Below are positions 15,014-25,220 of a stretch of DNA of 25,612 nucleotides, in pieces. Where the stretch lies: assembly GCA_003550305.1 (NCBI GenBank), contig QKYT01000174.1, positions 149,883 through 175,494 of the forward strand, read 5' to 3'. This DNA is from Glomus cerebriforme. Taxonomy: Eukaryota > Glomeromycota > Glomeromycetes > Glomerales > Glomeraceae. Position numbers and translations under genes: made by a program. Every line of letters starts with the position of its first letter. Positions within the stretch are counted from its first letter, which is position 1. The notes under the pieces are model-generated. The model was given only the letters and a program-made list of their open reading frames with translations, did no database searches and was not told the origin of the DNA.

Positions 15014-16411
15014 ATGAAACTCCTATTCCTAAAAAATGTAAGTCTCTTACTGCTCTTCACCTTTATTAAAAAACAAAGATTTAGCCAAAGAATATGATGT
15101 TAGTGAAGGGATGATTAGTGATATTTTAAAAGCAAAAGACTGTTGACTTTGCTGTATATCTTAACTCATATCAAGCTGATTTATGACATGAAAGAAGGCT
15201 CCCTTTTATTACCATTGAAGAGGCTCTAGCTCTTTGAATAGAAAATGCACTTCAGGCTAATATTATAATTACTGATTTAAAGGGATCAGATAGGTGGGTT
15301 GACAATTTTAATAAATGGCATAATCTTAAGCAATTCAACATGCATGGTGAAGCAGCAAGTGCACCACTCCAAGATCTTGATGTAATGTGTGAAAACTAGC
15401 TTCAAATTCTAAAAAATTATAACCCAGAAGATATTTTCAATTGTGATGAAACAGGCCTGTTTTGGAAAATGAGACCAAATCACATTATATTAAATGGTCC
15501 AGTTGCTGGAACAAAACAATCAAAAAATCATGTAATAATTTTGCTTACATGTAATGCAACTGGGAGTGAAAAAATGTGCATATTATTTATACATAAATAT
15601 GAAAATCTCTAAACACTTAAAAATATTAACAAAAATACTCTTTCAGTAAATTATTATTGAAACTCAAAGAGTTGGATGCAAGTATTAATCTGAAATGAGT
15701 ATATCAAAAAACTGGATGCTAGAATGAGAGCACAAGACCAAAATATTATTCTTCTTATTGATAATGTACTAATTTATTCTTTATATAAAACTACAAATCT
15801 TACAAATATTAGAATTGAATTCCTTTCTCCAAACACTACTGCACATTTTTAGCCATATAATCAAGAAATTATCACCAGTTTTAAGATACATTGCTATTTT
15901 TATTGATTATATTTTAAATATTTTAAAATTTTAAGTTATTTTTTTTTATTTTTAGGTATAATACCGAAAGTTATTATTAAATAATCAAGTTAAAATATTT
16001 AAATATGACATTGAACCTACTGAAGTTAATATTAAAAAGTGTATCAAATATGCACACGTGTAGGATAATATTACGCAATCTACAATTGAAAACTGTTGGA
16101 TAAAGGCAGACATTTTACCTAAAGTTGAAAATAAAATTGATATTGATTTCAATGCTGAAATACAAATTCGGAAGAAATTCAAGATTTAATTGATAAACTT
16201 AATCTTGAAAATCCATTTACTGCTGATGAATTTATTCAATATGACAATTCTGGACTTACAGCAGAAATGATATCTAATGAAAACTATTCTTTCCACTAAT
16301 CAAGAAAAGAAAGCAGAAGAATTAGAAGATTCTGAATCTTTTTCATCAATTCTTCACAATGAAGCTATAGAGTTGTATGATAACAAGAGAATAAATTTGT
16401 TAAAAAGCTAA
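15014..16411 (+). pseudogene. pogo/Tigger-type DDE transposase (CENP-B family)
   Basis: Read across several frames. The N-terminal PIPKKCKSLTAL is followed by the first helix-turn-helix LAKEYDVSEGMISDILK (15081-15131) and a CENP-B-like second domain (GSDRWVDNFNKWHNLKQFNM). The DDE core has IFNCDETGLFWKMRPN with the first Asp at 15445-15447, a NATGSEK segment, and NIILLIDN with the second Asp at 15760-15762. The third block reads NTTAHF, a stop, then PYNQEI, so the catalytic Asp of the usual QPxDxG motif is Asn (15859-15861). A C-terminal EEIQDLIDKLNLENPFTADE segment follows. T-rich DNA at 15890-15956 could be an intron but is not needed by homology. Many stops make the gene inactive. It would have catalysed TA-targeted cut-and-paste transposition of the element that carries it. 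Confidence 0.8.
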
Positions 16412-23655: not shown

Positions 23656-23657
23656 TA

Positions 23658-25218
23658 CAGTCAACTCTCTATATATGCACCCCCTTTGGGACCAAACATA
23701 AGCGTGCATATATAGAGAGTGTGCATTTATAGAGAAGTATAAATTTTATATTATAGAATCATTAAAAATAATGAAAATATTGTTTATTTAATTTTTATTA
23801 TCATTTATTGTAATTTATTATTCTAAAACAAATAAAACAACTATTAATTAAAGTACTGATATATAGTAGTTTGTGCTTGTTTTCTTTTAATAAATTTTTC
23901 AATTGTATCTACTAATTTTATATATTCATTTGCATTCTCTTGTTGAAGTAAAAATGTGTGCACAATTTCTAAACTTTTTAACGCTACCTTAGTGCTGACA
24001 ATTACTACCTCTGTGCTATCATCCATTTCGTCTAAATCATNATCAGAATCTTTCTTAAAATTTTTTACAAGCTCTTCAATTATTTGATCATCATCAGGAA
24101 TTTCATAAACAATATTCTCTTCAGAAATGTTAAGAAATTCTTCAGCTTCCATTGAATTAGGAAGATTAAGTACTTCAAGTATTTTGGATACTTCATCAAG
24201 TACTGGATCATCAGTTTCAGCATCATCCAAAAGCTCAGTGCTAGGGAGAATCCCAGTATGACGCCAACAGTTACAAATTGTTTCAGTTGTAACTTCATCC
24301 CAGCTTTTGATGATAAATTGAATTGCTTGCAAAACATCCATTTTTAGGTCTTGTATATATTCACCAGCCTCAATCTGTTCTAATATCCAGCTAAAATAAA
24401 AAAAATAAAATAAAAATTAATTTTTAAATAAAAATTAAATATTATTCACATATATACTGTACTTACCTAATATGATGATGACGATAGTGTTTTTTAAAAG
24501 ACATAATAATTCCAGCATCCATCGGCTGAATTTTTGATGTTGTATTTGGAGGTAAAAAATGAACATCAANTCTACTTCGTTTTTGTTCTGGATGAATGAC
24601 TTCAGTAGAAAGTCTTTTGTCTTTATTTTGCAAAATTCGTGTTATGGTACTTTCATCAACCCTAACTCCCCATTTTTGTTCAACCCAGTCAGCATATTGA
24701 ACTCGAGTCTTTTTATTGTTATTAGCATAAAGACAAAATTCATATTTTTGAGCGTCAGTTAGAAAAACTCTCTTTTTAGGGGGCATATTGATTTAACATT
24801 CTCACGNTAACATGTTTAAAAACNGCAGCCGCAGTGCTTATATATATTCTTATCGCTACNCNTTACNNNTAGCACGCATCACATTATACATGTTGTNTAT
24901 ATCTGAAACATGATTGAAAAGATAGTTTTTAACAAATAGTCAGAAGTATTCATGACTATTTGAGATTATTTATAATCAGTCATATATATATATAAAAATA
25001 AAATGAATTTTATTGTTTTTATTACAGCAAAGATTATGTCGAAGTCACGTGAATGCATATAGGTAAAAAATTTTAATATAGACGAAATCGGAAAATCATT
25101 GCACAATGTAAATAAAAAGTGTGCATCAAGCACTAATTCCCCAACTTGGGACNGAGTTAAAAGATGCATATTTAAAGGGTATGCATATATAAGTGGTGCA
25201 TATATAGAGAGTTGACTG
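23658..25218 (-). mobile_element. pogo/Tigger element, 1561 bp, perfect 24-bp TIRs, internally deleted
   Basis: The ends are identical inverted repeats starting CAGTCAACTCTCTATATATG and continuing CACC (23658-23681 and 25218-25195), with TA on both sides (23656-23657, 25219-25220). Each end carries three subterminal copies of a (G/A)TGCATATATAGAGAG-like motif. On the left, 23665-23680 and 23704-23719 form a perfect 16-bp inverted pair, with a third diverged copy at about 23721-23737. Such sites usually bind the transposase. One spliced minus-strand gene fills the interior. Perfect ends and an open gene indicate recent activity. A full-length pogo should be about 0.5 kb or more longer, so this is a deletion derivative. 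N bases are more frequent here than elsewhere, as expected for a high-copy family. Confidence 0.9.
23844..24786 (-). CDS. Truncated pogo transposase: DNA-binding domain fused to DDE C-terminus, spliced, 288 aa
   Basis: Exon 1 is 24786-24467 and exon 2 is 24390-23844. The 76-nt intron (GTAAGT at 24466, ...ATTTTAG at 24391) splits an AGC codon. The joined ORF is 867 nt with no stop before TAA; only two N codons are uncertain. Residues 1-60 (MPPKKRVFLTDAQKYEFC, VDESTITRILQNKDKRLS) form a CENP-B-N-type helix-turn-helix. After KRSR the protein jumps to HFLPPNTTSKIQPMDAGIIM, the last block of the DDE domain with the third Asp, so the second DNA-binding domain and the first two catalytic Asp residues are missing. 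Then come AIQFIIKSWDEVTTETICNC (C-terminal helices) and an acidic tail ending TIYQYFN. It cannot catalyse transposition but could still bind the element ends, as a repressor would. The junction is exactly at an N, so an assembly error must be excluded. Confidence 0.75.
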
Positions 25219-25220
25219 TA

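Follow-up and report, generated by a model that had tools for sequence, protein, structure and literature searches.

The right-hand end of the 25,612-nucleotide stretch of Glomus cerebriforme contig QKYT01000174.1 analyzed here (the window) carries a pogo-type element of 1,561 bp, at positions 23658-25218. The element ends in 24-bp terminal inverted repeats (TIRs), of which the left one (23658-23681, + strand) is a perfect reverse complement of the right one (25195-25218, - strand), and it is flanked on both sides by TA, the left copy of the target-site duplication lying at 23656-23657 and the right copy at 25219-25220. A pattern search with the TIR, allowing up to two mismatches, found 12 places, against none for the reversed control. 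When the flanks are joined, the resulting 276 bases match C779 and C809 (loci L038 and L039) over positions 1-274 and 1-273, at 92% and 91%, respectively. These are paralogous empty sites, in which the alignment passes straight and uninterrupted across the insertion site and the element is absent. Together, the TIRs, the TA, and the two empty sites provide good support for the insertion and for the edges of the element, which, as these alignments indicate, is inserted into a dispersed repeat. A reading made earlier from the letters of the window, referred to below as the sequence-only reading, had described perfect 24-bp TIRs and a TA duplication, and both the sequence and the two empty sites bear this out; the coordinates that it gave, 23844-24786, hold for the gene and fall short of the whole element. 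At the left end, positions 23664-23680 can pair with 23704-23720, an internal inverted copy of the terminal repeat, to form a hairpin. Elsewhere in the assembly, a 69-bp micro-element with TA on both sides (L030, C589:247951-248019) consists solely of the left end and this internal inverted copy; a run of N 9.4 kb or more in length lies 11 bases away from it.

The gene lies on the minus strand, with its ATG at 24786, an intron of 76 bp at 24466-24391 (GT...AG), and its stop at 23844. As the sequence-only reading had proposed, splicing yields a stop-free open reading frame of 867 nt including the stop, and translation gives 288 amino acids, two of which are X because of an N at 24570 and another at 24041. 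The first piece of exon 1 (24571-24786, -) encodes an N-terminal helix-turn-helix (HTH) of 72 residues; it is followed by the N at 24570, which marks an internal deletion junction, and by the second piece of exon 1 (24467-24569, -), which encodes the block containing the third catalytic Asp, FLPPNTTSKIQPMDAGII. Exon 2 (23844-24390, -) encodes the C-terminal part of the transposase, ending in the PIP-box-like QTTIYQYFN. The intron is supported by the alignment of spliced residues 74-288 as a single stretch to residues 249-467 of P0001, a relative from Rhizophagus irregularis, and by the alignment to locus L009 (C750), which spans the same intron position and in which the donor G has changed to A. 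The spliced protein matches the Pfam family DDE_1 (PF03184) with 70 bits against a cut-off of 22, over profile positions 58-177 of 177 and up to residue 149 of the protein, while the match of its N-terminal part to HTH_ABP1_N, at 18.5 bits, remains under the 22.5 cut-off of that family. In the predicted product, the third-Asp block and the C terminus of a pogo-type transposase (PF03184) follow directly on its first HTH. Upstream of the ATG, eight of the 20 N in the window are packed into 91 bases (24807-24897), a crowding that suggests mixed copies in the read set.

Comparison with other copies indicates what is missing between the two pieces of exon 1. In the 112.5-Mb assembly, a probe spanning the join (24520-24620) had, apart from the window itself, seven matches, of which six stop at 24568-24569 and the seventh begins at 24571. 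At C750, the two halves occur in the same orientation, and the bases that align to 24569 and 24571 are separated by 761 bp. The C750 copy is itself truncated at its other end and holds one element end plus the core. Among the 120 relatives listed in a protein search, 13 match both halves, all with 144-226 amino acids between the matched stretches (225 in three of them and 226 in one), although some of the 13 are gene models that skip pieces. The related elements L016 and L018 carry HTH_Tnp_Tc5 (PF03221), which corresponds to the stretch lost in the window copy, and in all six relatives checked the second and third Asp are 31 residues apart. The core present in C750 and the 144-226 residues present in the relatives thus imply that this copy has lost the second HTH along with two of the catalytic Asp: the complete DDxD triad is absent from the window copy, its first and second Asp falling within the missing core. 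By its predicted coding content, this copy is a derivative and not an autonomous member of the pogo group. The junction codon, NTT, cannot be a stop, and the frame runs on into the DVHFLPPNTT block common to the relatives. At the breakpoints in L009, which is itself degraded, no long overlap indicative of junction microhomology was seen. Much of what the sequence-only reading had said of this region therefore stands. The direct join of the HTH to the third-Asp block is real in the letters, with 761 bp in C750 at exactly that point; the view of the copy as a deletion derivative of a pogo-type element is supported, one of its ends being shared with the core-carrying L009, whose other end is missing; and the core of the DDE domain is absent. 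To this is to be added the loss of the second HTH. The assembly also contains a second derivative with both TIRs, 652 bp in length and with other breakpoints (L011, C881:97525-98176), that lacks nearly all of the gene, so that internal deletion recurs in this transposon family.

The protein search, run against 5.8 billion proteins, returned 306 relatives, of which 120 were listed. The six best-scoring are from Rhizophagus irregularis, and the other named sources among those listed are R. clarus, R. diaphanus, Diversispora, Racocetra, Cetraspora, and Dentiscutata; Rhizophagus and the last four genera all belong to the Glomeromycotina. P0001 shares 87% identity with the window protein in the HTH and 69% in the C-terminal part; P0002, also from Rhizophagus irregularis, shares 79% across 76% of the query length. 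In the reverse direction, the best matches in this genome to P0025 (R. irregularis DAOM 197198), P0015 (R. clarus), and P0052 (R. diaphanus) reach 76%, 86%, and 66%, which makes it probable that the genome is none of these three, although strains can differ in their transposon genes. Both end in QTTIYQYFN like the window protein but, unlike it, retain core sequence, P0001 having 173 amino acids between the matched halves. The TA sites, the 24-bp TIRs, and the DDE_1 match of the window copy are those of the pogo superfamily (IS630-Tc1-mariner group; Lemi or Tigger-like), and the relatives add further likenesses in the form of DD31D, HTH_Tnp_Tc5, and an Abp1-like DNA-binding region; what sets the window copy apart is the absence of the second HTH and of the first and second catalytic Asp. 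In the account given in PMC7386202, a TA target-site duplication is stated for the non-Fot pogo families, and TIRs of up to 40 bp form the commonest pogo class; the TA duplication and the 24-bp TIRs of the window element agree with both. The same source gives the Lemi family HTH_ABP1_N plus HTH_Tnp_Tc5 and a spacing of DD29-42D; of these features, HTH_ABP1_N is below its cut-off in the window protein and HTH_Tnp_Tc5 is found only in the relatives L016 and L018. The placement that these features indicate is therefore at the level of the superfamily, pogo. The fungal section of PMC7386202 names Ascomycota and Basidiomycota as hosts of pogo, and passages in PMC11075540 and PMC8647823 report Tc1 or Tc1-mariner elements in R. 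irregularis. The window itself contains a second pogo-like transposase fragment (15445-15912, +), which is decayed and has five stops.

Several lines of evidence suggest that the copy is young. The element was compared with six other loci (L009-L014, with L009 as two pieces); three further loci yielded no qualifying alignment and were left out of the count of private changes. Two or more of the compared loci cover 1,030 sites, at which 11 changes are private to the window; at nine of these the window has C or G where the others have T or A. These nine sites may be better explained by C-to-T decay that occurred in parallel in the other copies, and setting them aside leaves two private changes. 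Scaled to the 864 coding bases, this amounts to about 2 to 9 substitutions. In simulations under three mutation biases, which introduced substitutions only, without indels or splice sites, the reading frame remained free of stops in 0.83-0.90 of runs at 2 substitutions and in 0.47-0.66 at 8. When exon 2 was polarized with four outgroup copies, the window branch carried 2 changes (1 nonsynonymous and 1 synonymous) and the C388 branch 26 (23 and 3), with 3 unresolved. Parts of exon 2 are present at six other loci of the family, five of which have stops or frame breaks; the sixth, L015, has neither but covers just 158 of the 546 bases. An end piece at C614 is 97% identical to the window element over 281 columns, with 2 substitutions. 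The low divergence and the small number of private changes support a recent insertion. Moreover, because few substitutions are expected, an open reading frame is explained by youth and needs no selection, and the in-frame join would arise without selection with a chance of one in three. It is thus most likely that the frame is intact through chance and youth rather than through function.

Between C750 (L009 5603-6252 and 850-1337) and the window copy, 109 of 118 substitutions are C>T or G>A, and the C sites changed in C750 are spread over contexts: 52 of 136 in CA, 18 of 38 in CC, 14 of 30 in CG, and 23 of 114 in CT. This pattern is suggestive of RIP-like hypermutation that is not confined to CpG. 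The same lean toward C>T/G>A is present when L016 is compared with L019 (231 of 306 substitutions) and is much weaker in L010 (31 of 57). A passage in PMC8647823 states that no RIP signatures were detected in Gigaspora margarita or the Mucoromycotina.

Could the join be an artifact, with a full-length element actually present at this locus and its core passed over at the N during assembly? We regard this as unlikely, although it is the alternative to be taken most seriously, given that the N is positioned exactly on the join and coincides with the 761-bp jump. In addition, 11 of the 20 N in the window lie inside the element, which makes up 6% of the window, an enrichment that is expected where reads of several copies mix, and the near-identical C614 copy runs out part-way through the element, where N follow for 9.5 kb or more; so long a run of N may also represent withheld sequence. 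In certain alignments an N adjoins a gap: the one at 24041 is beside a 12-base gap in L010, and those at 24860-24869 face an 18-base gap in L011. Against this, each of the ten other N of the element has one base opposite it in L009, and in the related element in L016 every one of the 16 N has a counterpart base in L018, L022, and L019, with a 4-base gap next to one N in L019; eight further L016 N that lie beyond this element aligned only at chance-like levels of about 60% and were left out of the count. Because N stand opposite single bases, an N usually represents an ambiguous base and not a gap; N as a general gap mark was considered and is not the usual case, though some border small gaps (L010, L011, and L019). 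Furthermore, the two sides of the join have no visible overlap able to create a false join, and the reading frame is kept across it, a one-in-three event. On the reading of a genuine deletion, reads from full-length copies would clash with the deleted copy at the breakpoint and produce an ambiguous call at 24570; the alternative is that the assembler bridged two contigs there. The junction itself was found at one place only in the 112.5-Mb assembly, a count that is a lower bound because collapsed copies would be hidden. The sequence-only reading had thought the derivative possibly recently amplified, and of this the genome search gave no sign; with a single copy found, any mobilization of the derivative after the deletion is conjectural.

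The other question is whether the truncated protein does anything. Truncated P-element proteins repress transposition, and the sequence-only reading had suggested that selection may be preserving a self-made repressor. Such a truncated protein would be expressed and would bind the element ends or poison contacts of the transposase or PCNA. We consider this improbable. Speaking for it are the open spliced frame with its in-frame join, a predicted helical HTH (the AlphaFold model of the 72 residues has four helices and a mean pLDDT of 77.5), and the retained PIP-box-like motif. The openness of the frame is, however, expected from the youth of the copy, one copy with the junction was found, and half of the DNA-binding region has gone. 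Combining the window HTH with seven relatives gave a profile that matches the DNA-binding domain of Abp1 (1iuf, 4.6e-10) over positions 3-133, which take in both HTH, and CENP-B (1hlv, 0.011) over positions 45-133; the relatives are thus Abp1-like over both HTH, and the loss of the second weakens the repressor idea, which finds no support here. For the HTH, this sequence profile is more telling than structure matching: Foldseek with the predicted 72-residue HTH gave no match at E <= 0.001, and a single-sequence search of solved structures gave a chance-level match only. The relaxed PIP pattern Qxx[ILMV]xx[FY][FY] accommodates the tail QTTIYQYF, which differs from the strict form Qxx[I/L/M]xxF[F/Y] (PMC5371812) in having Y where F is required. 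According to the same review, Drosophila pogo transposase interacts with PCNA, and the PIP-box is conserved in Tigger and Lemi1, with unclear relevance. In 96 of the 120 listed relatives, the relaxed pattern is found within the final 14 residues, so that the tail is an inherited family trait and did not arise in the derivative. A 288-residue spliced self-regulator made of the first HTH, the third-Asp block, an acidic C terminus, and the PIP-box-like tail seems a distinctly doubtful proposition, and it is just as doubtful that such a protein would act as the element's own brake by rivaling full-length transposase at the element ends or at PCNA. Were the repressor reading true, arbuscular mycorrhizal fungi, with their transposon-rich genomes, would provide a self-limiting element that is tractable for study. 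Least probable of all is a host gene domesticated from a pogo transposase. Such domestication is on record repeatedly (PMC7386202), but the TIRs and TA are intact here and the insertion is young; the same join was found in no protein among the 120 listed of 306 relatives, and the assembly yielded no further copy of the junction that could have served for a measurement of selection. A domesticated gene would be expected to be immobile, to have lost its TIRs, and to be conserved as an ortholog under selection, a picture that the window copy does not fit.

The reading that we favor, and think probable, is that a DNA transposon of the pogo superfamily has left, in this Glomeromycotina fungus, a young, nonautonomous deletion derivative of an ordinary kind. 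Directly supported, as far as sequence comparison goes, are the end repeats, the TA insertion, the loss of the core relative to C750 and the other relatives, the frame, and the low divergence. An autonomous parent would have lost ~760 bp comprising the second HTH, the first and second catalytic Asp, and apparently one intron, probably through interrupted repair after excision, with the reading frame kept across the join by chance. The product would then have been inserted at a TA by transposase from another copy, or the deletion may have occurred in place soon after insertion. Either event would be so recent that the frame has not yet been broken by point mutation or by the kind of C-to-T decay that the related copies show. 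With two of three catalytic Asp missing, the protein should not catalyze transposition, and any repressor action would be incidental. If the element is indeed ordinary, it provides a clear case that an open frame in a young transposon copy is no evidence of selection, and a single genome supplies the copy of low divergence, the pair of empty sites, and relatives in decay.

Internal deletion derivatives are formed by class II elements such as P and Ac/Ds, and, as here, these keep the ends, lose the interior, and need transposase in trans; unlike them, the window copy retains an open, spliced reading frame. The KP-type repressors of the P element likewise consist of an N-terminal DNA-binding part without the catalytic core. 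In this respect, the window protein resembles them, but a P-element-type repressor has a complete DNA-binding domain, whereas the window copy, through loss of the second HTH, has kept only half of its DNA-binding region.
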